Assembly: GCA_019638845.1 (NCBI GenBank)
Contig: JAHBSZ010000002.1
Coordinates: 372,001-436,000, forward strand
Origin: Salinibacterium sp.
Lineage (GTDB): Bacteria; Actinomycetota; Actinomycetes; Actinomycetales; Microbacteriaceae
Direction of reading: 5' to 3'
Length of the DNA stretch: 64,000 nucleotides
Shown here: one piece after another, positions 21,286-51,605 of the stretch
How the letters are laid out: each line of letters opens with the position of its first letter
How positions within the stretch are numbered: position 1 is the stretch's first letter
Translations under genes and position numbers: made by a program
The notes under the pieces: model-generated
The model's input: only the letters and a program-made list of their open reading frames with translations
The model's database searches: none
Told to the model about the DNA's origin: nothing

Positions 21286-21393
21286 CGGTTCAGAATTCCG
21301 GATGCGGCGTGGCTGGTGAGGCCACTGGGAGCACCGTGACCCCTCTGACGCCTTCGTGCACAACTGCCCCGCAGCATCCGGAATCCTGAACCG
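21286..21393. repeat. DUF559 locus 1, downstream hairpin (inverted repeat pair)
   Basis: Arm CGGTTCAGAATTCCGGATGC (21286-21305) faces GCATCCGGAATCCTGAACCG (21374-21393), 19 of 20 pairs, with a 68-nt spacer. Begins 14 nt past the accC stop and ends 3 nt before the stop of the DUF559-type gene. Confidence 0.85.
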
Positions 21394-21396
21394 GGG

Positions 21397-22248
21397 CTAC
21401 GCGGGCAGGACCGGGTTCCAGGCTCGAGTGGCTAGCGCGCCCAGCACCATCGACTCGCACCACTCCCAGCGCGTGGTGACTGCCTCGAACGAGAGCCGCA
21501 CCACGACGTAGCCCCGCCGGAGCAGCTCGGCGTCACGCCGCCGATCATTTTCGAACGCTGTCGGGTCTTGGTGGTAGGTGCGCCCGTCGACCTCGACGAC
21601 GAGGCGAGTTCCGCGCACAACCATGTCGACGTCGCCGACTCCGGCGATCCTCACCTGCCGATCAACCCGGATGCCCCGACCCGCCAATCGCTGCGACACC
21701 AGTGACTCCGCGCCCGAACCGCAGCCGGGTCGCGCCCGTGACGCAAGGAGTCGTGCAGCAGCCGACTCTCCCTCAAACACTGCCAGGAGATCCGCAACCG
21801 ACAGCTGTCCGAGAGCAGATTCCAGACATGCCAGAGCTGTCTCGCGATCACACCACGCGACGACCTGACGCAACGTCGTGGGGATATCGAGCCGCCAGCA
21901 TTCGGCGTCGACTCGCAACGGCGGCGCATCCCAATGGAGCACCACCCTACGCGGCACGCGCGCCAGACGAGTCGCATGCGGCTCGACCGACACATGGATT
22001 CGCTTGTCGAAACCCGCCCAGAGACCGTACGTATGTGCACTGCTAGGGCCAGCAAGTCGCGCACCAAGCCGAACCGCCGCCACGATCTCCGGCCGCGTCG
22101 AGGGGAGCACATAGCGGGCCTGCCGAACCCGAATGATTCCACCGCCGCGAACGGCCGCCGCGATCTGGCGACCTGTCGAACCGCCGGCGAGAAGCTGGCG
22201 CCGGGTACTCGCAGAGCCCCAGCGCGCTACAGTCGCTGCTGCTGTCAT
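21397..22248 (-). CDS. AbiEi/HTH-like N-terminus + DUF559 (Vsr-like PD-(D/E)XK) protein, copy 1
   Basis: 283 aa, function unknown. N-terminal HTH-like part at about 12-62 (TRRQLLAGGSTGRQIAAAVR, RVRQARYVLP, VRLGARLAGPSSAHTYGLW), as in AbiEi-type antitoxin domains. C-terminal 100 residues are a DUF559/Vsr-like nuclease fold with E181 (GAESLV), D208 (GDVDMV), E219 and D221 (LVVEVDGRTYH) and DRRRDAEL near 235-242. The putative catalytic residues are intact. Flanked on both sides by inverted-repeat hairpins. No toxin partner gene adjoins it. ATG 22248 has no clear Shine-Dalgarno sequence. Biochemical role unproven. Confidence 0.82.
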   Translation of the reverse strand: MTAAATVARWGSASTRRQLLAGGSTGRQIAAAVRGGGIIRVRQARYVLPSTRPEIVAAVRLGARLAGPSSAHTYGLWAGFDKRIHVSVEPHATRLARVPRRVVLHWDAPPLRVDAECWRLDIPTTLRQVVAWCDRETALACLESALGQLSVADLLAVFEGESAAARLLASRARPGCGSGAESLVSQRLAGRGIRVDRQVRIAGVGDVDMVVRGTRLVVEVDGRTYHQDPTAFENDRRRDAELLRRGYVVVRLSFEAVTTRWEWCESMVLGALATRAWNPVLPA

Positions 22249-22308
22249 GGGATGAGGATGCCGCGGCGCAGCGGCGCCGAGGCGCGATCACTGGCATCCG
22301 TGGCCGTT

Positions 22309-22406
22309 CATCACTCCGGGGTTGCTGTTGAGGATGTGGCGCACGAGCGCGTCGTGACCTCCCGAGCCCCATCGGCCTCACCCACCACGCAGACTCCGGA
22401 ATGATG
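22309..22406. repeat. DUF559 locus 1, upstream hairpin (inverted repeat pair)
   Basis: CATCACTCCGG (22309-22319) faces CCGGAATGATG (22396-22406), 10 of 11 pairs, spacer 76 nt. The TTCA..ACTCCGG core resembles the 21286 arm. It lies 60 nt upstream of the DUF559-type start. Confidence 0.65.
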
Positions 22407-22446
22407 GCCCGGCCGGGGCCGGCCCCGGGCCCGGTGCCCCGGGCGG
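22407..22446. terminator. GC-only hairpin after lpdA
   Basis: A stretch of almost pure G and C just past the lpdA stop, with a perfect 16-bp palindrome at 22413-22428 (CCGGGGCC/GGCCCCGG). Likely a terminator for lpdA; no T run is visible. Confidence 0.5.
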
Positions 22447-22449
22447 GGA

Positions 22450-23886
22450 CTAGTTGACGATGTGCATCGCGCGCGCGGCATCCGTGATGCTGCTGGTGAG
22501 CGACGGGTATACCGAGAAGGCACGCGCGAGTTGGTCGACCGTGAGGCGGTGCTCGACGGCGAGCGCGATGGGGAGGATGAGTTCTGACGCCTTCGGGGCC
22601 ACGATGACGCCGCCGATGACGGTGCCAGACCCCGTGCGCGCGAACAGTTTCACGAAACCGTCCTTGATGCCCATCATTTTGGCGCGCGGGTTGGAGGCGA
22701 GCGGAAGCTTGTAGATATCGCCCTGGGCGATGCCGTCTTCAATCTGTTTCTGAGTCCACCCGACTGTTGCGATCTCGGGCTGGGTGAAGATGTTCGACGT
22801 GATGTTGCGCAGTTCCGTGGGGTTCACTGCGTCACCCATGGCGTGGAACACGGCCGTTCGACCCTGCTGCGATGCGACAGACGCCAGCGGCAGGAAGTCG
22901 GAGCAGTCGCCGGCCGCGTAGATCGATGGCATCGAGGTACGCGCGACCCGATTCACCCGGATGTGCCCGGATTCGGTGAGCTGCACCCCAGCCTCCGCTA
23001 ATCCGAGGCCCTCGGTGTTGGGGATGGATCCCACGGCGAGCAAGCAGTGCGACCCCTCGACAGTCCGGCCGTCCGCGAGGGTCGCCACGACCCCGTCCTT
23101 GGTGCGCTTGACCGAGTCAGCACGTGACTTGGAGAGCACGGTCATCCCGTTGCGCTTGAAAACATCCTCGATGACTCGCGCAGCGTCGAGGTCCTCACCC
23201 GGGAGCACCCGGTCACGGGAGGAGATGAGGGTGACCTTCGAGCCGAGGGCGGTGTAGGCAGACGCGAACTCGGCGCCTGTGACACCCGAGCCGACCACGA
23301 TCAGGTGTTCCGGCACCTCCTCGAGCGTGTAGAGCTGTGTCCAGGTGAAGATGCGTTCGCCGTCCGGCTTCGCGGTGGAAAGGATGCGCGGCCGCGCCCC
23401 CACCGAAATGACGACCGTATCGGCGTTGACTTCGTCGAAATCCGTTCCCGATTTGCCCTTTCCCGTGGACACCACGAGGCGCTGCGGACCGTCGAGCCGA
23501 CCCTCACCGTGGATGATCCGCACGCCCGCCTTGATGAGCTGCGACTTCATGTCTTCGGATTGCTGACGAGCGAGGCGCATGAGCCGGGCGTTGACCGCAG
23601 CGAGATTCACTGTGACCTCGGGGCGCACCGCGCGCCCCGAGTCGGAGCGCGCGAAGAATTGAACGCCGAGGTCTGCGGCTTCGCCAATGCCGTTGGTGGC
23701 TTCCGCCGTCGCGATGAGCGACTTGGAGGGAACGACATCGGTGAGAACCGCCGAACCGCCGACGCCCTCCCGCTCGACGAGCGTGACCTCGGCACCGAGC
23801 TGTGCGCCGGCCAGGGCTGCCTCGTAACCACCGGGGCCGCCGCCGAGGATCGCGATGCGCTGCTTTCGCTCGAATTCATAGGCCAT
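22450..23886 (-). CDS. lpdA: LpdA-type NAD(P)H-quinone reductase (flavoprotein disulfide reductase family)
   Basis: 478 aa. Seen: RIAILGGGPGGYEAALAGAQLGAEVTLVE (FAD site), EHLIVVGSGVTGAEFASAYTALGS near 178 (NAD site), IYAAGDCSDFLPLASVASQQGRTA near 322 and a C-terminal dimerisation domain. The redox-active Cys pair of lipoamide dehydrogenase is absent: where GGTCLNxGCIPSK is expected the protein has GGSAVLTDVVPSK (about 43-55). This is the known feature of mycobacterial LpdA (Rv3303c), which reduces quinones rather than lipoamide. ATG 23886 follows GGGAGG at 8 nt; an upstream in-frame start at 23910 is rejected. Confidence 0.93.
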   Translation of the reverse strand: MAYEFERKQRIAILGGGPGGYEAALAGAQLGAEVTLVEREGVGGSAVLTDVVPSKSLIATAEATNGIGEAADLGVQFFARSDSGRAVRPEVTVNLAAVNARLMRLARQQSEDMKSQLIKAGVRIIHGEGRLDGPQRLVVSTGKGKSGTDFDEVNADTVVISVGARPRILSTAKPDGERIFTWTQLYTLEEVPEHLIVVGSGVTGAEFASAYTALGSKVTLISSRDRVLPGEDLDAARVIEDVFKRNGMTVLSKSRADSVKRTKDGVVATLADGRTVEGSHCLLAVGSIPNTEGLGLAEAGVQLTESGHIRVNRVARTSMPSIYAAGDCSDFLPLASVASQQGRTAVFHAMGDAVNPTELRNITSNIFTQPEIATVGWTQKQIEDGIAQGDIYKLPLASNPRAKMMGIKDGFVKLFARTGSGTVIGGVIVAPKASELILPIALAVEHRLTVDQLARAFSVYPSLTSSITDAARAMHIVN

Positions 23887-24011
23887 GCTGCAATCCTCCC
23901 TTAAACGCACCCCGCATGCCTGCCACCGGGCCGCAGTACGCGCGCTGACCGTGGGTGGTGCCGAGGCATCCCGACAGGGTTAAACACGCCGCGGAGTCCT
24001 AGAGTGTTGGG
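23887..24011. promoter_or_regulatory. divergent lpdA / purine nucleoside phosphorylase promoter region
   Basis: 125 bp. Next to lpdA is a GGGAGG ribosome-binding site. On the plus strand TAGAGT (24000-24005) ends 6 nt before ATG 24012, giving a leaderless start. Confidence 0.55.
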
Positions 24012-24833
24012 ATGCCCAATCCCTTGGATGACCTCGCCACAAACCCCTTCGACATTGCCGCCGAGGCCGCGACGCAGATCGCGGAGAAGACGGGCGTCGA
24101 ACGCCATGACATCGCACTGACCCTCGGGAGCGGCTGGGCGAAAGCAGCGGATCTCATCGGCGAGACAACCGCAACCATCACCGCACAGGACATCGTGGGG
24201 TTCGGCAAGCCGGCGCTCGAGGGCCACGTTGGCACCCTTCGGTCGATCCTCCTGCCGAACGGCAAGCGAGCCCTCGTGATCGGCGCTCGCACGCACTATT
24301 ACGAAGGTCACGGCGTTCGACGAGTCGTGCATTCGGTGCGGACCGCAGCGGCGACCGGCGCCACGACCATGATCCTCACTAACGGTGCGGGCGGCATCAA
24401 GGAGACCTGGAAGCCCGGCACCCCGGTACTGATCAGCGACCACATCAACCTCACGGCGGATTCGCCCCTGGAGGGTGCGACCTTCATCGATCTGACCGAT
24501 CTCTACAGCTCACGGCTGCGCTCGATCGCGAAGGGCATTGACGGCGACCTCGACGAGGGCGTGTACTGCCAGTTCCGCGGACCCAACTACGAGACCCCCG
24601 CCGAAGTGCAAATGGCGAAGACGATCGGCGGGCACATCGTGGGAATGTCCACCGCACTCGAGGCGATCGCCGCCCGTCAGGCCGGAATGGAGATCCTCGG
24701 GATGTCACTCATCACCAACCTCGCAGCGGGCATCCAGAAGACCCCGCTCAGCCATGAAGAGGTCATTCAGGCGGGCAAAGATGCCGAAGTGAAGATTAGC
24801 GGCCTGCTGGCTCAGATTGTGGCGGCGATCTAA
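24012..24833 (+). CDS. punA: purine-nucleoside phosphorylase (trimeric, PNP family)
   Basis: Splits inosine/guanosine and deoxy forms with phosphate to base and (deoxy)ribose-1-phosphate. 273 aa. Seen: LTLGSGWAKAADLIG near 37, ALVIGARTHYYEGHGVRRVVHSVR near 87 and MILTNGAGGIKETWKPG near 119, signature of the low-molecular-weight trimeric class, then VQMAKTIGGHIVGMSTALEAIAARQAGMEILGMSLITNLAAG near 199. Stop overlaps the mutase start (TAATG), so the ribose-1-phosphate product can pass to the next enzyme. Opens the nucleoside salvage island. Confidence 0.95.
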   Translation: MPNPLDDLATNPFDIAAEAATQIAEKTGVERHDIALTLGSGWAKAADLIGETTATITAQDIVGFGKPALEGHVGTLRSILLPNGKRALVIGARTHYYEGHGVRRVVHSVRTAAATGATTMILTNGAGGIKETWKPGTPVLISDHINLTADSPLEGATFIDLTDLYSSRLRSIAKGIDGDLDEGVYCQFRGPNYETPAEVQMAKTIGGHIVGMSTALEAIAARQAGMEILGMSLITNLAAGIQKTPLSHEEVIQAGKDAEVKISGLLAQIVAAI

Positions 24834-26467
24834 TGGACCTCCTGACGACCGCGCGGGCCTGGCGCGACCAAGACCCGGATGCCACGACCAGAGCCGAACT
24901 CGATGACCTCATCACCGCCGCCGAGGCCGGTGAGCTCACGCCTCTCGCTGAGCGCTTCTCGTCCCGCTTGGCTTTCGGAACGGCTGGACTCCGCGGCGAA
25001 CTGGGTGCCGGGCCGAACCGCATGAACCGGGTTCTCGTCACCCAGGCGGCTGCGGGACTCGCCGCATACCTCCTGTCGAAGGATCCAAGCCCGAGCATCG
25101 TGATCGGGTATGACGGCCGACGCAACTCCGAGGTGTTCGCACGCGACACTGCCACGATCATGGCTGGCGCCGGAGTGGCGACTACGCTGCTCCCCCGGCA
25201 CCTCCCGACTCCCGTCCTCGCCTTCGCCGTGCGTCACTTCGACACGAGCGCCGGAGTCATGGTTACCGCGAGCCACAATCCCGCGAACGACAACGGCTAC
25301 AAGGTCTACCTCGGCAAAGACGACCATGGCTCGCAAATCGTGCCGCCCGAAGACGGGCTCATCGCCGCCGACATCGACATCGTCGCGAAGGGCTCGATCA
25401 CCGATCTGCCACGCTCGACCGACTTCATCGTCGCCGACGACACCGTCGTGCACGAGTACGTGCGTGAGACGGCGGCCCTCGCGACTCCGGGCGCTCCCCT
25501 GTCCTTCGTGTATTCCGCGATGCACGGGGTCGGCTGGGAGACCGCGAAGGCCGTGTTCATCGCTGCGGGCTTCGGCGAGCCTGCCGTCGTCACCGAACAG
25601 GTCGAGCCGGATGCCACCTTCCCCACGGTCGCTTTCCCGAACCCCGAGGAACCCGGCGCCATGGATCTCACCTTCGCACGGGCTGAGGAGGTCGGCGCCG
25701 ACCTCGCGATCGTCAACGATCCGGACGCCGACCGGCTCGCGGTCGCCGTGCCATCCGCTGACGGCGTCTGGCGACGTCTCACGGGCAACGAGGTCGGGTA
25801 TCTGCTCGGCTGGCGCGCCGCGGAAAGGGCCGACGCGGATGGCGTGCTCGCGGCATCCATCGTCTCGTCCCCCGCTCTGCGGGCCGTCGCGGACGCGTAC
25901 CAGCTGCGCTACGAAGACACTCTCACCGGCTTCAAATGGATCTCGCGGGTGCCAGGCCTTTCCTACGGCTACGAGGAGGCACTCGGCTATCTGGTCGACC
26001 CCGGCGTGGTGCGGGACAAGGACGGCATCTCGGCAGCGGTCGACTTCCTCTCCCTGGTTTCCGAGCTCAAAGCCGACGGCAAGTCCGTCGATGATCACCT
26101 CAACGACTTCGCCGACCGGTTCGGGGCGTTCGCGTCGGCCCAACTATCGCTGCGCTTCGACGACCTCTCCCTCATCGGTGCCGCGATGAGTCGCCTGCGC
26201 GCGACACCTCCCGTCCACGTTGGTTCGGTGATCGTCGAAACTATTGACGACTTCGCCGACGGGTTCGCGCACTATCCAGCAAGCGACATACTCAGGATGC
26301 ACCTCACCGACGGTGCCCGGATCGTCGTGCGGCCCAGCGGGACGGAACCTAAGCTCAAGGTCTACATCGACGCGTCGAGCAACTCCGGTACCGCGCACGA
26401 GCGTCGCGCCGCCGCCGAGGCTGTCGTTGCCGAACTTGAGGCCGGGATGAAGGCGTTACTCGCGTAG
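24833..26467 (+). CDS. phosphosugar mutase (PGM2-like; probable phosphopentomutase)
   Basis: Alpha-D-phosphohexomutase superfamily, 544 aa. Seen: FGTAGLRGELGAGPNRMN near 45, catalytic-serine loop VMVTASHNPANDNGYKVYLG near 142, metal loop IVNDPDADRLAVAVP near 293, sugar loop EEALGYLVDPGVVRDKDGISAA near 382, and phosphate loop RIVVRPSGTEPKLKVYID near 500. Often labelled phosphomannomutase, but this long subgroup includes phosphopentomutases, and coupling to the phosphorylase gene argues for isomerising (deoxy)ribose-1-phosphate to the 5-phosphate. Substrate is inferred from context. Confidence 0.88.
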   Translation: MDLLTTARAWRDQDPDATTRAELDDLITAAEAGELTPLAERFSSRLAFGTAGLRGELGAGPNRMNRVLVTQAAAGLAAYLLSKDPSPSIVIGYDGRRNSEVFARDTATIMAGAGVATTLLPRHLPTPVLAFAVRHFDTSAGVMVTASHNPANDNGYKVYLGKDDHGSQIVPPEDGLIAADIDIVAKGSITDLPRSTDFIVADDTVVHEYVRETAALATPGAPLSFVYSAMHGVGWETAKAVFIAAGFGEPAVVTEQVEPDATFPTVAFPNPEEPGAMDLTFARAEEVGADLAIVNDPDADRLAVAVPSADGVWRRLTGNEVGYLLGWRAAERADADGVLAASIVSSPALRAVADAYQLRYEDTLTGFKWISRVPGLSYGYEEALGYLVDPGVVRDKDGISAAVDFLSLVSELKADGKSVDDHLNDFADRFGAFASAQLSLRFDDLSLIGAAMSRLRATPPVHVGSVIVETIDDFADGFAHYPASDILRMHLTDGARIVVRPSGTEPKLKVYIDASSNSGTAHERRAAAEAVVAELEAGMKALLA

Positions 26468-26472
26468 TCGCA

Positions 26473-26514
26473 GATCCGCCGGCAGGAGACTCGAGCCCGA
26501 GCCCCAAGCGGATC
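26473..26514. terminator. hairpin between convergent genes
   Basis: GATCCGC (26473-26479) pairs with GCGGATC (26508-26514) across 28 nt, between the mutase and PTS genes. The right arm overlaps the PTS IIB stop codon by two bases. Confidence 0.4.
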
Positions 26515-26785
26515 AACCGAGCGCACCCTCGAGCTTCGTGCTCAGCTCTGCGGTGTCGAAGTAGTTCTCGATCACGATGACGGAAGCGTTGGTCTTGCCG
26601 ATTGCCTCGACGAACTCGTTCGAGGTGAGGATCACCTGAGCGTCCGCGGCGACCTGCTTGACTGACGCGATGTCGGCGGCAATCACTGTCGCCTCGACAC
26701 CCAGCTTGCGAAGCACCCGCTCGGCGTTCACCTTGAGGATTCCGGAGCTACCGATACCCGCGCCACAGATGGTCACGATCTTCAC
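26513..26785 (-). CDS. PTS EIIB component (lactate/ascorbate/galactitol type)
   Basis: 90-aa phosphocarrier. Seen: MKIVTICGAGIGSSGILKVNAERVL with the phospho-acceptor Cys7 in a P-loop-like CGAGIGSS, and VILTSNEFVEAI. This is the PTS_IIB type of the SgaB/GatB group. The start is GTG 26785, overlapping the IIA stop (GTGA). No membrane EIIC gene is present in this window, so transport by these proteins alone cannot occur; see the finding on the orphan IIA/IIB pair. EI (ptsI) is at 44700-46343. Confidence 0.88.
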   Translation of the reverse strand: MKIVTICGAGIGSSGILKVNAERVLRKLGVEATVIAADIASVKQVAADAQVILTSNEFVEAIGKTNASVIVIENYFDTAELSTKLEGALG

Positions 26786-27231
26786 ACTTCCACCGCGCCC
26801 ATGATGCGTTGAACCTCGTCGGCGCTCGTCGCCGCCGCGAGATCGGCGATGGCCGAAGAATCGTTGAACACGTTGGCGACCGCGGCGACCGCGGCGAGGT
26901 GCTCCGATGACGTCCGCACAGCAAGCCCCAGCACCACGCTCACCGGATCGTTGTAAGGGTGGCCGAAGTCGACAGGCTCAGCGAGAGTGACGATCGACAG
27001 TCCGTCGGCGAGTACCTCCGGCCCCGGGCGGGCGTGCGCAAGCGCAAGCCCCGGTGCGATCACGACGTAGGGGCCGTGTTCCTCGATCATCCGGATCATC
27101 TCGCCGGAGTAGCCCACACGCGCGGCTCCCGACCGTGCGAGCGCTTCGCCCGCTAGGGTCACCGCCGCGCGCCAGTCGGCCGCCTCTGCGGCGATGACGA
27201 TGGCGCTCTCCGGGAGCGGGGGAAGGGTCAT
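26782..27231 (-). CDS. PTS EIIA component (mannitol/fructose/ascorbate type)
   Basis: 149-aa PTS_EIIA_2 domain protein. The phospho-acceptor His lies in VIAPGLALAHARPGPEV near residue 66, and PVSVVLGLAVRTSSEHLAAVAAVANVF near 95 is typical of the fold. The gene starts 3 nt after the adenosine deaminase stop and overlaps the IIB gene, so all three form one operon. The linkage to a purine enzyme rather than to a sugar permease suggests either a role in uptake of a nucleoside-related compound with an EIIC elsewhere, or regulation. Undetermined. Confidence 0.88.
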   Translation of the reverse strand: MTLPPLPESAIVIAAEAADWRAAVTLAGEALARSGAARVGYSGEMIRMIEEHGPYVVIAPGLALAHARPGPEVLADGLSIVTLAEPVDFGHPYNDPVSVVLGLAVRTSSEHLAAVAAVANVFNDSSAIADLAAATSADEVQRIMGAVEV

Positions 27232-27234
27232 CCG

Positions 27235-29344: not shown

Positions 29345-29364
29345 TCCCGCACATGCTCTCGCCT

Positions 29365-29430
29365 CCGTGAGAGTACACACATGTGCGTACTCTCACGGAA
29401 CGAGGGAGCGGATGCACGTACTTTCGCGGG
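29365..29430. repeat. DUF559 locus 2, upstream palindrome and extra half-unit
   Basis: A near-perfect 34-bp palindrome at 29365-29398: CCGTGAGAGTAC / GTACTCTCACGG around CACATGTG, one mismatched pair. A third related half-unit GATGCACGTACTTTCGCGGG (29411-29430) ends right at the ATG of the next gene. A decayed copy may lie at 29348-29364. Confidence 0.85.
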
Positions 29431-30321
29431 ATGCACTCACTCCCTCCGGAACTCTGGAATCGCTCATTCGGCGTCAGCGAGGCGCTGGAGCTCGGAATCA
29501 CGGCCGCTCAGTTGAGATCGCCACGGCTCGCGCACCCGTTTTGGGGCATCCGGGCAGAGTCCGAGCGAACGGGCCTTGACCTCATCCGGGCGTTCGCACC
29601 ACGGATGCCCCCGCGCGCCTTCTACTACGGCACGACGGCGGCGTTGCTGCACGGGCTTCCCTTGCCACCGCGGCTCAAGCGGAAGGTGCTACCCCTACAC
29701 ATCGCCGTGATGGCGGGCCAACGAAGGGTCGTTGCCCGTGGGGTGACGGCGCACCATGTGACCATCGACCCGGACGACATTGAAACGATCGACGGGCTGC
29801 GCGTCACCACCGTGGAGCGTACGTGGTGCGACCTAGCGGCCACCGGTGTCACCTTGGCAGAGCTCGTAGCTGCGGGAGATGCTGCCCTGTGGCGCCGCGA
29901 TCCCAAGACTCACCTCCGGCGCATCCGGGCAGCAACCGCTCGCTATGAGGGTCGGCGCGGAGCACGCCTCATCCGCGATGCCGTGCCGTTGCTGACGGAT
30001 CGCTCAGACTCGCCACCGGAGTCAGAGCTCCGGGTGGCCTTCATCCAGGCAGGGCTGCCAAGGCCACTCCCCAACTACCAGATCCGTCATCTCGGTCGTC
30101 TGGTCGCCACCCCCGACCTAACGTGGCCAGAAAGGCGTGTTCTCGTTGAGTACGAGGGGGAGCACCATCTCACGGATGCACGCCAGTGGGCGTACGACAT
30201 CGAGCGGTATGCACGTCTGACTGAACTGGGGTGGACCGTCATCCGCGCAACCGCAGCGGACTATCGCGACCCGGCAAAGCTCATCGCGCGAGTTGCTCGT
30301 GCCCTCACTACGGCTCACTGA
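29431..30321 (+). CDS. AbiEi-like N-terminus + DUF559 (Vsr-like) protein, copy 2
   Basis: 296 aa, function unknown. N-terminus PELWNRSFGVSEALELGITAAQLRSPRLAHPFWGIR is the usual opening of this protein group; the middle has ALLHGLPLP and VTTVERTWCDLA; the C-terminus is a Vsr-like domain with E197/E199 (PPESELRVAF), D229 (VATPDLTW), E240 and E242 (VLVEYEGEHH), H245, and YDIERYARLTELGWTVIR. An upstream in-frame start at 29383 lies inside the palindrome; homology begins at M 29431. The stop codon TGA sits inside the left arm of the downstream repeat. Diverged from copies 1 and 3. Confidence 0.8.
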   Translation: MHSLPPELWNRSFGVSEALELGITAAQLRSPRLAHPFWGIRAESERTGLDLIRAFAPRMPPRAFYYGTTAALLHGLPLPPRLKRKVLPLHIAVMAGQRRVVARGVTAHHVTIDPDDIETIDGLRVTTVERTWCDLAATGVTLAELVAAGDAALWRRDPKTHLRRIRAATARYEGRRGARLIRDAVPLLTDRSDSPPESELRVAFIQAGLPRPLPNYQIRHLGRLVATPDLTWPERRVLVEYEGEHHLTDARQWAYDIERYARLTELGWTVIRATAADYRDPAKLIARVARALTTAH

Positions 30322-30376
30322 GAGTACATATTTCTGCTCCCCCCATCCGCGAAAGGCCGCGTATGTGCGTACTCTC
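30319..30376. repeat. DUF559 locus 2, downstream inverted repeat pair
   Basis: TGAGAGTACATA (30319-30330) faces TATGTGCGTACTCTC (30362-30376). Core GAGAGTAC/GTACTCTC equals that of the upstream palindrome, and ATGTGCGTACTCTC recurs identically at 29381-29394. The TGA of the left arm is the stop of the DUF559-type gene. Confidence 0.8.
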
Positions 30377-30378
30377 GC

Positions 30379-30412
30379 GGGGCGGGGCGGGGCGGGCGGG
30401 GCGGGCGGGGGG
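30379..30412 (+). repeat. G-run tract, G-quadruplex candidate
   Basis: 34 nt made of seven G-runs (3 to 6 Gs) separated only by single Cs. It lies between the repeat and the stop of deoA, so the deoA transcript would carry the C-rich complement just past its stop. Confidence 0.7.
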
Positions 30413-30413
30413 C

Positions 30414-41132: not shown

Positions 41133-41248
41133 GGCGAGCGCCTTGTCGTCGGAATACACTGGAAGAGTCCGCTTTCCGGACAGTTACCCGGCCGCCCAGC
41201 GTTCGCCAGAATCAGCCGCGGCCCTCATTCCGCTAGGAGGGGTTGCTC

Positions 41249-43934: not shown

Positions 43935-44695
43935 TGTCGAACGCAGTCATGGAGTCCAAGCCGAGCGTGCCCGACGAGATTCCGACGTTCACAGCGACCC
44001 TGATCATCCGGCGCTTTGATCCGGAGGTTGACGCCGAGCCCCGCTGGCAGGACTTCGATGTCGAGCTGCACGGCACCGATCGTGTGCTCGATGCGCTCCA
44101 CAAGATCAAGTGGGAGCAGGACGGCTCACTCACCTTCCGCCGGTCGTGCGCTCACGGCGTGTGCGGTTCGGATGCGATGCGCATCAACGGCCGAAACCGC
44201 CTCGCCTGCAAGACCCTCATCAAAGACCTAGACATCACGCAGCCCATTTACGTTGAGGCGATCAAGGGGTTGCCGCTCGAAAAGGATCTTGTTGTCGACA
44301 TGGAGCCATTCTTCGACTCCTTCAGGTCGGTCAATCCGTTCCTCATGGCGGGCATCGTGCCCAAGGGCGGCAAGGAGCGCAAGCAGAGCCCCGTCGAGCG
44401 CGCGCGTTTCGACGACACCACCAAGTGCATTCTGTGCGCCGCGTGCACGTCGAGTTGCCCAGTCTTCTGGACTGACGGCCAGTACTTCGGCCCCGCGGCC
44501 ATCGTCAACGCCCATCGCTTCATCTTCGATTCGCGCGACGAGAACGCGCAGGTTCGCCTCGACATCCTCAACGACAGGGAAGGCGTGTGGCGGTGCCGCA
44601 CGACCTTCAACTGCACCGACGCGTGCCCCCGCGGCATCGAGGTGACGAAGGCGATCGCCGAGGTGAAGCAGGCCATCCTTCGCGGAAAGCCGTAG
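43934..44695 (+). CDS. sdhB: succinate dehydrogenase iron-sulfur subunit
   Basis: 253 aa, carries the three FeS clusters. [2Fe-2S] ligands RSCAHGVCGSDAMRINGRNRLACK, in which an Asp replaces the third ligand cysteine as in E. coli SdhB; then CILCAACTSSCPVFW and CRTTFNCTDACPRGIEVTK for the [4Fe-4S] and [3Fe-4S] clusters. Electrons go from SdhA to quinone in SdhC/D. ATG shares a base with the sdhA stop. The gene ends 4 nt from the convergent ptsI stop. Confidence 0.96.
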   Translation: MSNAVMESKPSVPDEIPTFTATLIIRRFDPEVDAEPRWQDFDVELHGTDRVLDALHKIKWEQDGSLTFRRSCAHGVCGSDAMRINGRNRLACKTLIKDLDITQPIYVEAIKGLPLEKDLVVDMEPFFDSFRSVNPFLMAGIVPKGGKERKQSPVERARFDDTTKCILCAACTSSCPVFWTDGQYFGPAAIVNAHRFIFDSRDENAQVRLDILNDREGVWRCRTTFNCTDACPRGIEVTKAIAEVKQAILRGKP

Positions 44696-44699
44696 CCCA

Positions 44700-46343
44700 C
44701 TAGGCGTTCGCGGCGGCCGTTCGAGCAGCCGCAGCATCCGATGCGCCCAGCGCGGCGACCGCCCGAGCTTTCGCCTGCTCGAGCGTGACCGTTGCCAGTT
44801 CTGCGCGCACATCGGCAAGCGCGGCTGGCGTCATCGACAGGGTCGTCGCTCCCAGACCCACGAGCACGACCGCGAGTTGCGGGTCGGCGGCTGCTTCACC
44901 GCAGATTCCGACGCCCTTTCCTGCCGCAGCGCCCGCATCCCCGAGCATCTTCACCAGGCGAAGCACCGCCGGATGCCACGGATCCTGGTAGCTCGCCACC
45001 GAACCGAGCATCCGGTCCGCAGCCATCGTGTACTGGGTGAGATCGTTCGTGCCGATCGATACGAAGTCCGCCGCAGCGAGGACCTGATCGGCCATCACCG
45101 CGAGTGATGGCACCTCGGCCATGACGCCGACCGTCGTGAGACCGAGGGACTTGCCCAGCTCGACGAAGTACTTCGTCTCCTCCGCGTCGGCGACCATGGG
45201 GGCCATGACCCACAGGTCGGCGTCCGTCGCATCCTGAGCACCCTTGAGTGCGGTGAGCTGGTCGACGAGAATCTGCTCGCTCGCCCGCAGCGCGCGCAGC
45301 CCGCGCAATCCGAGTGCCGGGTTCTCCTCGTGGTCGGAGTTCAGGAACGCAAGCGGCTTGTCGGCCCCCGCGTCGAGGGCTCGCACGACGACCTTCTTGC
45401 CGGGGAAGTAGGAGAGAAGTTCGGTGTACTTCTCCTGCTGATCCGCGACGGTCGGCGCGGTCTTCGAGTCGAGGAACAGGAACTCGGTACGAAACAGTCC
45501 AACACCTTCCGCGCCCAACTCGACAGCACCTGGGCCGTCCTTCGGTGAACCGACATTCGCCAGCAGCGGCACCTTCGTACCGTCGGCGAGCGCGCCATCC
45601 ACGATCGGGAGGGTCGATGCCACCGCTCGGGCCGCGATGCGCTCGTTGGCGTCGCTGATGAGCGCGTCACTCGGGTCGGCCGTCACGAGACCTGCCGCGG
45701 CATCCATCACGACCACTGTGCCGTCACTGAGCTCGAGCGCTCCCGTGACCCCCACAATCGCGGGAATCGACTTCGAACGCGCGAGAATCGCGGTATGGCT
45801 GGTCGGCCCACCGTCGCGTGTGATCAGGCCGAGCACCTTGTCGAGATCGAGCAGGGCCGTGTCAGCAGGGGCAAGATCGGAGGCGACAAGGATGAACGGG
45901 GTGTCGCTTGTCGGGACGCCGGGAGCGGGCACACCGCGGAGGTGGGCGATGATGCGCTGGGCAACGTCGCCGAGGTCGGTCGCACGTTCGGCCATGTAGC
46001 CGCCCATGCCGATCAGGATGTCTTGGAACGCCGCGAAGGCCTCGAACACCGCACGTTCGCCACTCGTCCCGGAGTCGATGCGCACCTTGATGTCGTCGCT
46101 CAATGTCGGGTCTTGCGCCATCATGGCTGCCGCCTCGAGCACGGCCTGTGCTTCGCCGCCAGCCGCGGCCCCCTTCGCGGCGAGTTCGCCAGCAACGGCG
46201 GTGAGCGATTCCTGAACCGTGGCGTACTCGGCAGCGGCGTCTCCGCCGTGGGTACCCGCTTCGGGCTCGGGCAGCGGGTCGGGCATCCTGAGGATCGGCC
46301 CCACCGCGACTCCCCGGCCGACTCCAACTCCGTGTAGCTCCAT
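44700..46343 (-). CDS. ptsI: phosphoenolpyruvate-protein phosphotransferase (PTS enzyme I)
   Basis: First phosphocarrier of the PTS, cytoplasmic, 547 aa. Seen: GVGVGRGVAVGPILRM at the N-terminus, GLITRDGGPTSHTAILARSKSIPAIVG near 170 with the phospho-His, GVGLFRTEFLFLD near 275 and VMAEVPSLAVMADQVLAAADFVSIGTNDLTQYTMAADR near 407 (PEP site). A GTG at 46373 is in frame, but GAGAGGA precedes ATG 46343, the preferred start. Would phosphorylate HPr and through it the IIA at 26782. HPr itself is not in this window. Confidence 0.94.
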   Translation of the reverse strand: MELHGVGVGRGVAVGPILRMPDPLPEPEAGTHGGDAAAEYATVQESLTAVAGELAAKGAAAGGEAQAVLEAAAMMAQDPTLSDDIKVRIDSGTSGERAVFEAFAAFQDILIGMGGYMAERATDLGDVAQRIIAHLRGVPAPGVPTSDTPFILVASDLAPADTALLDLDKVLGLITRDGGPTSHTAILARSKSIPAIVGVTGALELSDGTVVVMDAAAGLVTADPSDALISDANERIAARAVASTLPIVDGALADGTKVPLLANVGSPKDGPGAVELGAEGVGLFRTEFLFLDSKTAPTVADQQEKYTELLSYFPGKKVVVRALDAGADKPLAFLNSDHEENPALGLRGLRALRASEQILVDQLTALKGAQDATDADLWVMAPMVADAEETKYFVELGKSLGLTTVGVMAEVPSLAVMADQVLAAADFVSIGTNDLTQYTMAADRMLGSVASYQDPWHPAVLRLVKMLGDAGAAAGKGVGICGEAAADPQLAVVLVGLGATTLSMTPAALADVRAELATVTLEQAKARAVAALGASDAAAARTAAANA

Positions 46344-46385
46344 GCTGTGGTCCTCTCCCTCGAAGTTGCCCACAGCCAGCCTAGC

Positions 46386-46397
46386 TATGGTGGGGAG
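46386..46397 (+). promoter_or_regulatory. leaderless -10 element of YihY-like gene
   Basis: TATGGT (46386-46391), 6 nt to ATG 46398. Selects this ATG over an in-frame start at 46347. Confidence 0.5.
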
Positions 46398-47348
46398 ATG
46401 ACGGTGAAGCAGCGCATCGCCGCGGTGGTGGCATGGGTCATGGGGCTCAAGCCGGTCCGCGTGTTCCTCCAGTACAACGCCAAAGGCGGGCCCGTGCTCG
46501 CGGCGGGCCTCGCTTTTCAGGCGATCTTTGCCGTCTTCGCCGCGGTCTGGGTCGGATTCTCGATCGCAGGGTTCGCGGTCACATCGAGTCCTCGACTCAG
46601 CGAGGCATTTCTCACCCTGCTCGCGACCAATGTCCCCGGCCTTATCGACACCGGCAACGGCGGCGCCATCGATGCGGATGCTCTCCTCGGCACCGGGGTA
46701 CTGACGTGGACTGGCGCCATCGCCGCGATTGGGCTGCTCATCACTGCGGTCGGCTGGCTCGCCGCCGGCCGCGATGCCGTACGACTGCTCTTCGGCTTGC
46801 CGACCCCGCCAACCAACTTCCTGCTGCTCAAGCTCAAAGACCTCGCACTCGCACTCGCATTTGGGCTTGCCATGTTCATCTCGGCCGCAGTTTCCGTGCT
46901 CAGCACCGGTGCGCTGAACTGGGTTTTCGACTGGGCAGCCATCGACAAGACCTCCGTTGTGGCCACCGTCGCCGCGAACGCGGTCGGCCCGATCATCGTG
47001 CTCGTTCTGGATGCGCTAGTGCTCGTCGCGTTCTACCGGGTGGTGTCGAGCATCCGTATCCCGTGGCACCAGTTGTGGCAAGGAGTGCTCATCGCGGCGC
47101 TCGCCCTCGGGGTGCTGCAGTCCCTCGGGAGCTCATTGCTCGGCGGTGCGACGCGCAACCCGCTACTCGCCTCGTTCGCCGTCATCATCGGCCTGCTGAT
47201 CTGGTTCAACCTGATCAGCCAGATCATCCTCATCGGTGCGACGTGGATCGCGGTGAGCGCCGACGACGCCGACGTCGACCTGTCGGGGCGACGACGGTCG
47301 GGCACGTCGACACCCCACCGGCCGAGCGGCGTCGGTACCGCTCTCTAG
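46398..47348 (+). CDS. YihY/virulence-factor-BrkB-family membrane protein
   Basis: 316-aa inner-membrane protein with about six helices. Seen: FLQYNAKGGPVLAAGLAFQAIFAVFAAVWVGFSIAGF near 23, the YihY/UPF0761 signature, and LLIWFNLISQIILIGATWIAV near 268. Despite the old ribonuclease BN label for this family it is a membrane protein of unsettled role. Divergent from ptsI and directly before xthA; neither neighbour explains it. Confidence 0.88.
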   Translation: MTVKQRIAAVVAWVMGLKPVRVFLQYNAKGGPVLAAGLAFQAIFAVFAAVWVGFSIAGFAVTSSPRLSEAFLTLLATNVPGLIDTGNGGAIDADALLGTGVLTWTGAIAAIGLLITAVGWLAAGRDAVRLLFGLPTPPTNFLLLKLKDLALALAFGLAMFISAAVSVLSTGALNWVFDWAAIDKTSVVATVAANAVGPIIVLVLDALVLVAFYRVVSSIRIPWHQLWQGVLIAALALGVLQSLGSSLLGGATRNPLLASFAVIIGLLIWFNLISQIILIGATWIAVSADDADVDLSGRRRSGTSTPHRPSGVGTAL

Positions 47349-47358
47349 GATCGGAGAC
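47346..47358 (+). promoter_or_regulatory. leaderless -10 element of xthA
   Basis: TAGGAT (47346-47351), 7 nt to ATG 47359. Its TAG is the stop codon of the YihY-like gene. Confidence 0.5.
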
Positions 47359-48204
47359 ATGGCCAGACCCTTGCGCATTGCGACCGTCAACACGAACGGC
47401 GTGCGCGCCTCCTTCCGGAAGGGAATGGGTGAGTGGCTCGCCGCCCGCGACGTCGACATCCTCGCCTTGCAGGAGGTACGAGCGTCGACCGAAGATCTCG
47501 AGCAACTCCTAGGACCGGAGTGGGACATCCTGCACGACGCCGCCACGGCGAAGGGTCGCGCGGGTGTCGCGCTCGCTTCACGTCGCAAGCCGACCATCCA
47601 CCGCGTCGCTTTCGGGGCCGAAGATTTCGATAGTGCTGGCCGTTGGTTGGAGGCCGACTACGAAGTGGGCGACCGCATCATCACGGTCGTCAGCACGTAC
47701 GTCCACACCGGTGAAGCCGGGACCCCCAAGCAAGACGAGAAGTGGACGTTTCTCGACACGATGGAGGCGCGGATGTCGGAGCTCCAGAAGCACAGCCCAC
47801 TCTCGCTCATCGTGGGCGACCTCAACGTCGGCCACCGCGAGCTCGATATCCGCAACTGGCGCGGAAACCGGAAGAACGCTGGCTTCCTTCCCCGCGAACG
47901 CGCCTACTTCGACAGATTCTTCGGAGAAGCCGGTGCTCTCGTGGACACGGTCGATGGCGAGTCGGGCACCGGCCTCGGCTGGGTGGACGTCGGTCGCCGC
48001 TGGTCCGGCGAAGTCGACGGGCCCTACACCTGGTGGTCACAGCGCGGGCAAGCCTTCGACAATGACACCGGCTGGCGTATCGACTACCACATGGCCTCCC
48101 CTGACCTCGCCGCGACGGTGGTCGATTACCGCGTGGATCGGGCTGAGGCCTACGACAAGCGATGGAGCGACCACTCGCCCGTGGTGGTCGACTACGCCCT
48201 TTAA
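47359..48204 (+). CDS. xthA: exodeoxyribonuclease III (AP endonuclease)
   Basis: Base-excision-repair nuclease of the EEP superfamily, 281 aa. Seen: LRIATVNTNGVRASFRKGMGEWLA at the start (first metal Asn), LALQEVRAS near 35 (catalytic Glu), VVSTYVHTG near 112, LIVGDLNVGHRELDIRNW near 151 (Asp/Asn pair), RIDYHMASPDLAAT near 240 and RWSDHSPVVVDY near 267 (catalytic His). Stop TAA is also the start of the trpS -10 hexamer. Confidence 0.95.
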   Translation: MARPLRIATVNTNGVRASFRKGMGEWLAARDVDILALQEVRASTEDLEQLLGPEWDILHDAATAKGRAGVALASRRKPTIHRVAFGAEDFDSAGRWLEADYEVGDRIITVVSTYVHTGEAGTPKQDEKWTFLDTMEARMSELQKHSPLSLIVGDLNVGHRELDIRNWRGNRKNAGFLPRERAYFDRFFGEAGALVDTVDGESGTGLGWVDVGRRWSGEVDGPYTWWSQRGQAFDNDTGWRIDYHMASPDLAATVVDYRVDRAEAYDKRWSDHSPVVVDYAL

Positions 48205-48213
48205 GCTGTAGGG
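48202..48213 (+). promoter_or_regulatory. leaderless -10 element of trpS
   Basis: TAAGCT (48202-48207), 6 nt to ATG 48214. The TAA is the xthA stop codon. Confidence 0.5.
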
Positions 48214-49221
48214 ATGAGCACCAAGACCCGCCTCTTTTCCGGGATGCAGCCGTCGGCTTCCTCCCTCCAGATCGGCAACTACATCGGGGCCTTGCTGCAG
48301 TGGAAGCAACTCCAGCAAACGCACGATGCAGTCTTCTGCGTCGTCGACCTGCACGCGATCACAGTGCCGCAAGACCCTGCCGAACTGCGCGAAGCAACCC
48401 GTCGAACTGCGGCCCAGTACATCGCCGCGGGCATCGATCCGGCCGAGTCGATCTTGTTCGTGCAGTCGCACGTCGCCGCGCATTCTCAACTTGCTTGGGT
48501 GCTCAACACCATCACGGGCTTCGGTGAGGCCAGCCGGATGATCCAATTCAAAGAGAAGTCGCAGAAGCAGGGTGCCGATGGCACGAACGTTGGCCTGTTC
48601 ACCTACCCCATGCTCATGGCAGCAGATGTGCTTCTCTACGACGCCGAGATCGTTCCCGTCGGCGAGGACCAGCGCCAGCACGTCGAACTCACGCGCGACC
48701 TCGCCGTGCGATTCAACCAACGCTTTGGCGACACCTTCGTCATTCCCGAGGCCAGAATCCAGAAGGAGACAGCCAAGGTCTACGACCTTCAGGAGCCCGG
48801 CAACAAAATGAGCAAGTCGGCGTCGTCCGAGAAAGGGGTCGTCTGGCTTCTCGACGACCCTTCGGCGAGCGCGAAGAAGATCAAGGCCGCGACCACAGAC
48901 AGCGAGGGTTCCGTGCGGTTCGACCCGGCGACCAAGCCGGGCATCTCGAACCTGCTCACGATCTACTCGGTACTGACAGGGCGCACGATTCCCGACGTCG
49001 AACGCGAATACGAAGGGCACGGCTACGGCGACTTCAAGTCCGGCCTCGCCGAGGTCGTCACGGAGACCTTCGGCCCCATCCGAGCGCGCGCCCTTGAGCT
49101 ACTGGACGACCGTGCAGAGCTCGACCGGATTCTCGCGGGCAACGCCGACCGCGCCGCCGAGATCGCCGATGCCACCCTGGCCCGGGCCAACGACAGGGTC
49201 GGGCTGTTGCCGCGCGCATGA
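48214..49221 (+). CDS. trpS: tryptophanyl-tRNA synthetase
   Basis: Class I aminoacyl-tRNA synthetase, 335 aa. Seen: [25 protein letters not shown] at the start (HIGH-equivalent QIGN), [11 protein letters not shown] near 40, [36 protein letters not shown] near 129, and [12 protein letters not shown] near 197 (KMSKS loop). Normal length. ATGA overlap with the acetyltransferase gene that follows. Confidence 0.97.
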
Positions 49222-49760
49222 TTCCCGTCACGCTCACGACGCCGCGGCTCGTGCTCGACCAACCCACATCGGCCGACAGTACGGTCATCGCCGAATACTG
49301 CACCGACCCCGTGTTCGAGATCAACATGACCACACCGTGGCCCTACGAACTCAAGCACGCGACGCACTTTGTCTCGGACTACGTGCCCATGGGATGGCGC
49401 ACGGGCGAGGAGTACACCTGGGCGATCCGCAGCGACGGGGTCTTCTTGGGGATGGTGGGCTACCGAGTACCGTCAGGCATGATCGGGTACTGGCTGGGGG
49501 CGCCCCATCGAGGACAGGGCATCATGACGGAGGCCGCGACGGCAGTTGTCGACTGGCTGTTCAGTGTGGGCATCCCCTCGCTCGGGTGGGAATGCATTCC
49601 GGGAAACACCGCCTCCGTGTCCGTCGCACGCAAGCTCGGCTTCACCTTTTTGGGCCTGCGGGACGCGCTCGTGCCGGATCGTGACGGCTCCACGCCTCCC
49701 GTCTGGCAGGCGGCACTCGCATCCAATGACGACCGCAGCGAAAAGCCGGGCTGGCCGTGA
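49218..49760 (+). CDS. GNAT-family N-acetyltransferase (RimJ/RimL type)
   Basis: 180 aa. Seen: [26 protein letters not shown] at the N-terminus, [26 protein letters not shown] near 92 (acetyl-CoA loop R/Q-x-x-G-x-G/A), and [20 protein letters not shown] near 132. RimJ/RimL-like enzymes acetylate protein N-termini, antibiotics or small amines; substrate unknown. Starts inside the trpS stop and ends inside the HAD gene start, so translationally coupled to both. Confidence 0.9.
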
Positions 49761-50473
49761 TCCGGCTAGCGCTCTTCGATCTGGACGACACACTGTTCCA
49801 TCATCGACAAGCCGTCCGTGCCGGCATCGCCGCACACGTAGCGACGACCCTGCCAGGAATTGACGCGAGTTCCCACCTCGACCGGTGGGATGCCTTGGAA
49901 GAACAGCACTATCACCGCTACCTCAGCGGCGAGATCGACTACCTCGGCCAACGCCGAGCTCGAGCACGCGACTTCATGGCGGGCTTCGGTGTCACTCTCG
50001 GCGAGGATGCGGCGGCCGAGGACTGGTTCGAGACCTACCTCGTCGAGTACGTACGGGCATGGACGCTGTTCGACGACGCGCTGCCCTGCCTCTCGACCCT
50101 GGCTGCACAGGGTGTTCGTGTGGGGATGATCACCAACGGCATCCCAAGCTTTCAGCAGCCCAAACTCGACACGCTCGAACTATCGGCGCACTTCGAACAC
50201 GTCGTCACGAGCGGGGAGTTCGGGGTGCCGAAGCCCGACCCCGCGATCTACCTACACACCTGCAACCTCTTCGGCGTGGACCCGGCCGAGGCAGCATACG
50301 TCGGCGACCGCCTCCACACCGATGCCCTCGGGGCCGCCGGAGCCGGACTACTCGGGGTGTGGCTCGACCGGGAGGCGACGGCCTCCCCCGCTGAGACCGC
50401 AACGGCCGCGGATTCCGGTGCCCACATCATCGCCTCGCTCCACCAGCTCGCGCCGCTGCTCGCGCGTTCATAA
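49757..50473 (+). CDS. HAD-superfamily hydrolase
   Basis: 238-aa phosphatase-like protein. Seen: LALFDLDDTLFHHRQAV at the start (nucleophile DxD), VGMITNGIPSFQQPKLDTLEL near 118 (motif II Thr), VPKPDPAIYLHTCNLFG near 156 (motif III Lys) and AAYVGDRLHTDALGAAGAGLLGVW near 179 (motif IV). Related to YjjG/PynA-type nucleotidases; substrate unknown. Stop TAA (50471-50473) lies inside the left arm of the DUF559 locus 3 repeat. Confidence 0.92.
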   Translation: MIRLALFDLDDTLFHHRQAVRAGIAAHVATTLPGIDASSHLDRWDALEEQHYHRYLSGEIDYLGQRRARARDFMAGFGVTLGEDAAAEDWFETYLVEYVRAWTLFDDALPCLSTLAAQGVRVGMITNGIPSFQQPKLDTLELSAHFEHVVTSGEFGVPKPDPAIYLHTCNLFGVDPAEAAYVGDRLHTDALGAAGAGLLGVWLDREATASPAETATAADSGAHIIASLHQLAPLLARS

Positions 50474-50550
50474 CTCCTGCACGTCTGGCCCAACGCACGA
50501 CGTGACGGCGGTTCGAGGGGTCCCCGGGACGGCATCGCAGGAGTTGTGAA
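50467..50550. repeat. DUF559 locus 3, downstream inverted repeat pair
   Basis: TTCATAACTCCTGC (50467-50480) faces GCAGGAGTTGTGAA (50537-50550): 14-bp stem with one G-T wobble, 56-nt spacer that itself holds CACGTC/GACGTG. The left arm includes the TAA stop of the HAD gene. The terminal sequence is nearly identical to the repeat at 51512. Confidence 0.88.
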
Positions 50551-50556
50551 CGTCGC

Positions 50557-51441
50557 TCAGACGTGAACCCGGAAGTTGTGGCTCGCGAGCAGTAGCTGTC
50601 TCACCGCGTCGACCACCTCGGACGTCGACGACATGGTCCGGCCGTAGGCGGGCCTCACGGTCGGGTAGCCCAGCCGCGCCGCATCGATGTCCCGATTTCG
50701 ATCCCGTACGTGCAGCTCCCAGCTGTCGTGGGCCAGCCGGCTGTCCGCTTCGACGATCACACAGCCTTCGACGATCAGATCAACGCGGCCAACGCCATGG
50801 AGAATCACTTGCAGGTCGCAGTGGAATCCGGCGTCTTGGAGGGCGAGCCGCAACACTGTCTCCTGACCCGCCTCGGCCCGACCGTCGATTCGTGCTCGCA
50901 TCGGCTGGAAGCGCTCGGGGAGATGGCGGAAGATCTCCGCCACTTCGGATTCCTCAATCGCCCCGGTGAACAGAGCATTGTCGAGCGAGGCGATGGCAAA
51001 CCGAGATTCCTGGCATTGGACGACCTGAGCAAGGGCGTCACTAACACCCACCGAGAACTCGTTTCCTCCTCCGGTTTCGATCAGTGCGCCCCAGTGCACT
51101 GTCGCGCCTCCCCGGGGCGAGCCCAGCGGGCGATTCCGCCGATCGGGATCACGAGGCCGAGAAGCGGTACGCGCGAGGTGCACGTGCGTCGCCGACGAGT
51201 CGATGGCGAAGATTCCCCTGTGCGCGAGTGCCGAGAGACAACCGATCCTTCCGCCAATCCGAACAGCTCGGATGATCGGCTTCGGCGTTCCGGGGAGTAC
51301 ATAGTGATCCCGCCGCACTCGCAGAAGGTGCCCTTGCTGCACCGCCGCGGTGAGGTCGCGGCCAGTCGCACCCGCCGAGAGGAGTCCCTCACGCGACACG
51401 ACCAGCACGTTCAAGTCTCGGAATGCCTCGCTCCACGTCAT
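50557..51441 (-). CDS. AbiEi/HTH-like N-terminus + DUF559 (Vsr-like) protein, copy 3
   Basis: 294 aa, function unknown. N-terminus: VVSREGLLSAGATGRDLTAAVQQGHLLRVRRDHYVLP near 15-50 and AVRIGGRIGCLSALAHRGIF near 59, an AbiEi-like winged-helix region. C-terminus: E194 (AGQETVLRLAL), D221 (VGRVDLIVEG), E231 and D233 (VIVEADSRLAH), H238, and DRNRDIDAARLGYPTVR. The putative nuclease residues are kept. A longer frame to 51609 runs through the upstream hairpin and lacks homology; I start at ATG 51441. Bracketed by near-identical hairpins at 50467 and 51512. Confidence 0.82.
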   Translation of the reverse strand: MTWSEAFRDLNVLVVSREGLLSAGATGRDLTAAVQQGHLLRVRRDHYVLPGTPKPIIRAVRIGGRIGCLSALAHRGIFAIDSSATHVHLARTASRPRDPDRRNRPLGSPRGGATVHWGALIETGGGNEFSVGVSDALAQVVQCQESRFAIASLDNALFTGAIEESEVAEIFRHLPERFQPMRARIDGRAEAGQETVLRLALQDAGFHCDLQVILHGVGRVDLIVEGCVIVEADSRLAHDSWELHVRDRNRDIDAARLGYPTVRPAYGRTMSSTSEVVDAVRQLLLASHNFRVHV

Positions 51442-51511
51442 CCCGGGAGTGTTGCTGCCTCGGCTCCCCCGAGCACCGTCCGGCCGGGACTCGGTGCAGA
51501 ACGCCCCTCGC

Positions 51512-51605
51512 TCATAACTCCTGCAGGAGGGGTCCCTCGCGGGCGTGTTCCCCTGCACCTTCCGGCACCACCGGGCTCCAAGGGGGCGAGCTGCAGGAGT
51601 TGTGA
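51512..51605. repeat. DUF559 locus 3, upstream inverted repeat pair
   Basis: TCATAACTCCTGCAG (51512-51526) faces CTGCAGGAGTTGTGA (51591-51605), with the same single wobble as at 50467. The spacer is 64 nt. Both flanks of the gene share TCATAACTCCTGCA and GCAGGAGTTGTGAAC and an inner GAGGGGTCCC word. Confidence 0.9.

Follow-up and report, generated by a model that had tools for sequence, protein, structure and literature searches.

A nuclease gene bracketed by paired inverted repeats in Microbacteriaceae: a REPIN/RAYT-like arrangement with an unrelated enzyme

In a stretch of 64,000 nucleotides from Salinibacterium sp. (assembly GCA_019638845.1, contig JAHBSZ010000002.1, positions 372,001 to 436,000; hereafter the window), three genes, designated loci 1 to 3, encode small predicted nucleases and lie between short inverted-repeat pairs. 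Comparison among Microbacteriaceae showed that a gene of this family bracketed by matched inverted pairs is a real and general arrangement in these bacteria. The arrangement works like that of REPINs (repetitive extragenic palindromic, REP, doublets forming hairpins) and RAYTs (REP-associated tyrosine transposases), as the initial annotation of the window had proposed; the enzyme is unrelated, and hence the gene is no RAYT. The explanation that we favour, and hold to be probable on balance, is a two-part system, REPIN/RAYT-like in its working, in which the nuclease would keep, amplify or relocate the elements.

Matched inverted pairs on both sides of the gene

Homologs of the locus 3 protein were obtained at E <= 1e-10 in 198 of 299 Microbacteriaceae genomes. 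The family sample comprised 90 loci from this search (30 plus 60 rows, the window's own locus included), whereas G254:C84, G262:C81, and G254:C203, which were partial or lay at a contig edge, and G278:C10:528420 were left out. A long-loop pair was defined as the top-scoring inverted pair whose loop measured 20-80 nt, given a score of at least 11. Such pairs were present upstream in 58 and downstream in 60 of the 90 loci, compared with 29 of 1074 shuffled sequences and 11 of 178 outer stretches, the latter being mostly coding and thus not a pure intergenic control. With a score of at least 15, 36 upstream and 27 downstream pairs were retained, vs. none in the shuffles and one in the outer stretches. 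The excess of inverted repeats beside other family members that had been expected was therefore evident: long-loop pairs accompanied 74 of the 90 homologs, being present in both flanks of 44 and in a single flank of the rest.

In 42 of these 44 loci (all except L106 and L135) an arm was common to both sides, as against 231 of 1892 cross pairs, and the observed mean of the both-side match was reached by none of 10000 permutations. The arms also followed the protein clade. Among 127 loci with at least one pair (drawn from the 90 and 79 further loci, minus duplicates and frames with stops), arm similarity increased with protein identity (Spearman 0.36; reached by 0 of 500 permutations), strong arm likeness being found in 88% of the locus pairs at 60-80% protein identity and in 2% of those at 30-35%. 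Arm sequences varied considerably (for example GCATAACTCCTGC, GGCTAACTCAGGA, and CGAAATGCAGGA) and no GTAG was shared among them. A Luteimicrobium homolog (L287) presented a perfect inverted pair of 29 bp around a 69-nt loop 3' of the match, on one side only.

Within the window, the three genes and the six inverted pairs were located as claimed in the initial annotation, and the cassettes of 1121, 1012, and 1139 bp given there agree with the arm coordinates. Each best inverted pair per flank was compared with 500 dinucleotide shuffles of that flank, and the features are as follows (elements have no strand assigned):

21286..21393, element on the 3' side of the locus 1 gene; arms CGGTTCAGAATTCCGGATGC.../...GCATCCGGAATCCTGAACCG, loop 52; 0 of 500 shuffles
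21397..22248, minus strand, locus 1 gene, AbiEi-like/Vsr-like predicted nuclease of 283 aa; MTES_1575 2.9e-12 and DUF559 6.3e-8 (Pfam)
22309..22406, element on the 5' side of locus 1; CATCACTCCGG--76--CCGGAATGATG; score 8, alone not above chance
29364..29399, element on the 5' side of locus 2; tight palindrome with GAGAGTAC core; 0 of 500 shuffles
29431..30321, plus strand, locus 2 gene, 296 aa from the ATG at 29431; MTES_1575 5.4e-6, PADLOC AbiEi models 5.7e-11
30320..30376, element on the 3' side of locus 2, overlapping the stop codon; GAGAGTAC--41--GTACTCTC; 38 of 500 shuffles, weak alone
50465..50552, element on the 3' side of locus 3; CGTTCATAACTCCTGC--56--GCAGGAGTTGTGAACG; 0 of 500 shuffles
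50557..51441, minus strand, locus 3 gene, 294 aa, protein used for the structure model; Pfam MTES_1575 only 0.13
51512..51605, element on the 5' side of locus 3; TCATAACTCCTGCAG--64--CTGCAGGAGTTGTGA; 3 of 500 shuffles

Paired repeats had been claimed on both sides of each gene; they are in place, although only four of the six were above chance on their own, the exceptions being the 5' side of locus 1 and the 3' side of locus 2. The top pair of the locus 1 5' stretch (score 9) was a different one and was matched by 166 of 500 shuffles. The 5' element of locus 2, a tight palindrome, displayed no long-loop pair. These two weak pairs, together with the mostly intergenic position of the elements, are what can be said for the view that the pairs arose by chance, or are transcription terminators, in intergenic DNA rich in G+C. 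Against it stand the flank and both-side controls, the long loops, the helical steps in arm spacing described below, and a search with Rfam over positions 20000-53000, where a flavin mononucleotide (FMN) riboswitch was the sole match. We regard this explanation as very improbable; as a general one it was rejected as untenable, given the family flank counts and the both-side arm matches.

In the structure model of the locus 3 protein, residues 1-188 displayed an AbiEi fold (Foldseek match 6y8q, E 2.5e-5) and residues 187-289 a Vsr-like fold resembling those of Vsr, I-Bth0305I, and NGO0050. A Vsr-like catalytic domain with acidic/His residues, as in EDxHD homing endonucleases, was present. As modelled, the protein thus combines an AbiEi-like module with a Vsr/EDxHD-like nuclease in one chain. 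In 41 homologs, Pfam matches at E 0.01 were obtained to MTES_1575 in 35, to AbiEi_4 in 17, and to Vsr in one, whereas no Y1 transposase family appeared at E <= 1 in the three window proteins and none was listed at E <= 0.01 for the 41 homologs. Of the E...D...ExD/E residues reported for the three window proteins, E194, D221, and E231 (locus 3 numbering) were invariant across 26 homologs, loci 1-3 among them. The winged helix likely recognises the arms, because the fold is AbiEi-like and AbiEi antitoxins are described as binding inverted repeats in their promoter (PMC7319586).

The host genome of the window (2.96 Mb, 13 contigs) yielded, in two Pfam searches, six further matches beyond loci 1 and 2, plus a doubtful 91-aa frame (L017). 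Matched pairs were found on both sides of L002 and L005 and on one side of L006; L003 presented weak pairs only (score 9-10), with CAACTGGCTT common to them by eye, no pair was found beside L007, and the 1262-aa L008 displayed none at score 12. There was one gene copy per repeat type in this genome. The six immediate neighbours of loci 1-3 were all metabolic enzymes, with no AbiEii gene among them. The FMN riboswitch (51713-51866) lies upstream of ribD, just beyond the locus 3 cassette, and a short G+C-only repeat-like tract was seen on one outer side of each cassette (22408-22447, 30377-30412, and 51633-51665).

Lone copies and arm spacing

Elements were also found away from the genes, the initial annotation having suggested a genome-wide look for solo hairpins, with up to 41 lone copies per genome; they were enriched where the gene bears the same arm, with exceptions. 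The arm-A pair (AACTCCTGC...GCAGGAGTT, allowed span 58-88 bp) occurred in 21 of the 299 genomes, at 1-24 copies each and 163 in total, as compared with 0 for the reversed control. It was present (3-24 copies) in all 11 genomes whose examined gene bears arm A; in the other genomes at least one copy was found in 10 of 288 and more than two in five, this latter count being given as well because up to two copies in a carrier genome are the gene's own flanks. For a second arm, AAATGCAGGA, presence was foretold for five genomes and found in all five, with a maximum of 36 copies in G127. The idea that this arm is restricted to the foretold genomes was dropped, because it was also present in 22 of the 294 remaining genomes.

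The correspondence between gene and copies was examined further in a cross test of 26 genomes, mostly Cryobacterium. Ten arm-A genes went with 8-41 A copies and 0-2 B copies, and nine arm-B genes with 3-18 B copies and 0-12 A copies; G337, whose gene arms are AACTCCTCCA and AACTCCTTCAG, had no A copy and one B copy, and G327 and G334, with TTCAGGA in place of CTCAGGA in their arms, had no B copies. In the host genome of the window, 10 pairs of the locus 3 type were found vs. 0 in the control, and 14 of the 15 sites with at most one mismatch sat within a pair (L022 judged by eye). Near-identical elements lay side by side, as after local duplication, at G191:C96:254957-255454, G277:C4:58985-59265, and G029:C3:73892-74090.

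The distance between the two arms of an element was strongly constrained. Arm-A spans, taken from the 91 of 163 pairs with coordinates listed, fell into classes of 63-64 (15), 72-75 (25), and 83-86 bp (51), with none in between and a best period of 10.6 bp; the same three classes contained 4, 18, and 63 of the 85 distinct arm-A elements in fetched loci (overlapping the 91 in part), and arm-B spans (n = 31) were 62-63 (8), 74-75 (5), and 83-85 bp (18); as elements of related genomes share ancestry these counts are not independent events, the classes nonetheless recurring across genera. The spans of one gene's two elements differed by 0-2 bp in 51 of 67 loci, by 9-12 in 12, by 19-22 in three, and by 43 in one, and differences of 3-8 or 13-18 bp were absent from the 67 loci whatever the arm family (eight loci in which arms matched weakly or in other polarity were omitted). 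Arm spacing thus proceeds in steps of about 10.5 bp, that is, in whole turns, which would bring the two arms to the same face of the double helix. Since the spacing follows the helical repeat, the recognised form is probably duplex DNA rather than a hairpin. The proposal that the N-terminal helix-turn-helix recognises the hairpin is accordingly retained as regards likely recognition of the arms by the winged helix and is unsupported as regards the hairpin form. In 84-bp elements (L078-L093 and L292-L314) a symmetric centre near CCCGGAATTCCGGG was conserved and the linkers were not; the count was made symmetric and so favours palindromes.

Duplex recognition, together with the promoter binding of AbiEi antitoxins (PMC7319586), also fits a repressor of the AbiEi kind that would act on an operator pair of its own and, through operators elsewhere, on a regulon. 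The position of the elements speaks otherwise, as they are also found 3' of the gene. By rough gene calls, nine of 20 lone elements in G333 could be classed, five of them between convergent genes and one between divergent ones, and the eight in the window's host genome comprised two convergent, two divergent, two tandem, and two inside a predicted frame. The conservation of the nuclease residues likewise argues against a simple repressor, and we consider this possibility quite unlikely.

Turnover at fixed sites

Among 27 genomes of the genus, the sites of loci 1, 2, and 3 were filled in some and empty in others. None of the arms was present at the empty sites inspected, namely both of those fetched for locus 1, all six for locus 2, and seven of the 11 for locus 3. 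Arms kept at orthologous sites regardless of the gene, an outcome that would have spoken against the initial annotation, were thus not seen at these sites. Exceptions at the locus 2 site were a lone pair with other arms in G313 (score 13) and a tight palindrome in G316 (score 21). Filled and empty sites were too diverged in the genus to show a precise insertion such as a homing endonuclease gene makes when it drives itself into an uninterrupted allele.

Orthologs of locus 3 occupied its site in six other species at 44-60% identity. They were paired on both sides in G304, G314, and G310, with arms that were species-specific yet agreed within the species (AAGAACTCAGGCAG, AACTCCTGCAG, and GATAACTCCTGCA, respectively), on one side in G317 and G313, and on neither at threshold in G311. 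This indicated that the gene can persist while the repeat changes on both flanks; inheritance of the gene would be mostly vertical. The locus 1 ortholog of G313 (59% identical) displayed no recognisable pair. In nine congeners (L160, L161, L163, and L166-L171), the gene at the locus 1 site was of a different type, 312-339 aa long and bearing a GEFDG motif. Pairs with a score of at least 11 (long loop or matched sides) were seen beside such genes in two genomes alone, on both sides in G311 and on one in G300, and a weak Pfam AbiEi_4 match was obtained in one of four tested; a nuclease of this shape can thus be without elements. At the locus 2 site, eleven congeners (L184-L194) presented a frame of about 490-513 aa, membrane-transporter-like by eye.

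Lone elements varied between congeners as well. Element H2 of G333 was present in G323, and the same site lacked it in G320, G321, G322, G329, and G342, whereas at site H1 a pair with other arms (by eye) was carried by G320-G322; G320 and G321 were about 86-97% identical to G333 in the surrounding pieces. The agent of this presence and absence would be the nuclease. In addition, 17 of 75 loci had flanking elements whose two spacers resembled each other more closely than 99% of cross pairs do (up to 0.93), and this, with the near-identical neighbouring copies, counts for active copying.

The main rival to this reading is selection on the arms and spacing of standing copies, the elements serving as protein-binding sites for a host task such as chromosome organisation, repair, or defence, where the nuclease acts or is held, and spreading by other means. 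Arms and whole-turn spacing are conserved and most spacers are not, the 84-bp class has its conserved centre, and Vsr-type domains have been proposed to act in defence (PMC3710099), all of which would suit such sites. Their turnover between congeners, with replacement at one site by a pair with other arms (by eye), would not, and species with this task in common have different arms, which change jointly on the two flanks. We judge this rival unlikely, if by some way the strongest. Less probable than any alternative so far except chance pairs and terminators is that the elements belong, as miniature inverted-repeat transposable elements (MITEs), to an ordinary transposase elsewhere, the nuclease gene being a frequent passenger. 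Short elements with inverted ends and no genes are typical of MITEs, and the enzyme activity of the AbiEi-Vsr protein is so far a predicted one; the arms, however, track the AbiEi-Vsr protein family and no target duplication was seen.

Several observations weigh against maintenance of the elements by the nuclease. No pair at threshold was found in 16 of the 90 homologs, and beyond Microbacteriaceae pairs were mostly weak or missing. Lone copies without a matching gene were seen for both arms (the 10 of 288 and 22 of 294 genomes given above, in which genes were partly examined): 11-12 arm-A copies occurred in G325, G327 (12), and G330, where the one examined gene of each bears other arms, and 17 in G345, whose one examined gene bears ACAACGTCGGC. 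Single arms with up to three mismatches were not in excess in the window's host genome (119/115 vs. 146/142 in the control). Most spacers within one genome were barely alike (G333 mean 0.45, shuffled 0.40), unlike recent copies of one master, and no target-site duplication was recognised by eye at the compared congener sites.

Proposed mechanism and known systems

The favoured system would consist of a gene whose product joins a winged-helix protein of AbiEi type to a nuclease domain of Vsr/EDxHD type, and of short elements, typically 60-110 bp, with two inverted arms of about 14 bp each, one element on each side of the gene and further ones scattered over the genome. Protomers would bind the two arms of one element via their winged helices, on one face of the duplex, and the nuclease domains would cut or nick the DNA within the element or next to it; through repair of the break or replication, elements would then be kept, amplified, and relocated. 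Binding, cutting, and mobilisation are thus attributed to the nuclease by inference. Taken as a whole, we put forward tentatively, at a little less than even confidence, the independent origin of a partnership between a non-HuH enzyme and interspersed repeats, in which an AbiEi-Vsr nuclease would read paired inverted sites in duplex DNA spaced by whole turns and, through cutting, maintain or spread them; a single bacterial family would contain many distinct enzyme/arm specificities.

REPIN/RAYT is the best-known case of an enzyme with its own short repeats. If a second, unrelated enzyme does share this arrangement, the reason why such pairs persist would become testable by comparison, and specificity can be tested directly by means of the spacing rule and the numerous enzyme/arm pairs. 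Part of the large DUF559/MTES_1575 gene set of unknown function would gain a role, and the system would stand apart from REPIN/RAYT as a bacterial repeat system in a class of its own rather than a variant. The partnership looks undescribed so far: no description of this gene/repeat system was found among the open-access papers searched (preprints and subscription papers being outside their scope), in which DUF559 was not joined with REPIN, inverted repeat, or AbiEi, nor RAYT and REPIN with Actinobacteria.

The likeness to REPIN/RAYT, or the REPtron, as that system is described in PMC3116915 and PMC8266576, includes inverted doublets beside the gene, scattered copies, a repeat type of its own for each gene, a gene that is not multiplied, and co-variation of gene and repeat. 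As in a REPIN, two inverted short repeats form one dispersed unit. In contrast, the enzyme here is AbiEi plus Vsr-like vs. HuH/Y1 in RAYT/TnpA_REP (IS200/IS605), no GTAG tag is found at the arm end (REPIN tag, PMC3733652), and element spacing follows the duplex helix whereas TnpA_REP works on single-stranded REP. With respect to the type IV toxin-antitoxin system AbiE, AbiEi is here fused to a nuclease, the elements lie on both sides of the gene and genome-wide, and no AbiEii toxin gene adjoins loci 1-3. The EDxHD homing endonuclease I-Bth0305I differs in that the gene described here is free-standing and bounded by its own repeats, with many lone repeats and no intron seen, and the Vsr mismatch endonuclease, which nicks next to T:G mismatches, has the fold alone in common, the AbiEi module being additional. 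Finally, the nuclease domain of the MTES_1575 restriction endonuclease family was matched by most homologs (the 35 of 41 given above); the founding description of that family concerns giant helicase/HEPN proteins (PMC3710099), whereas the present one is a small protein with its own repeats.

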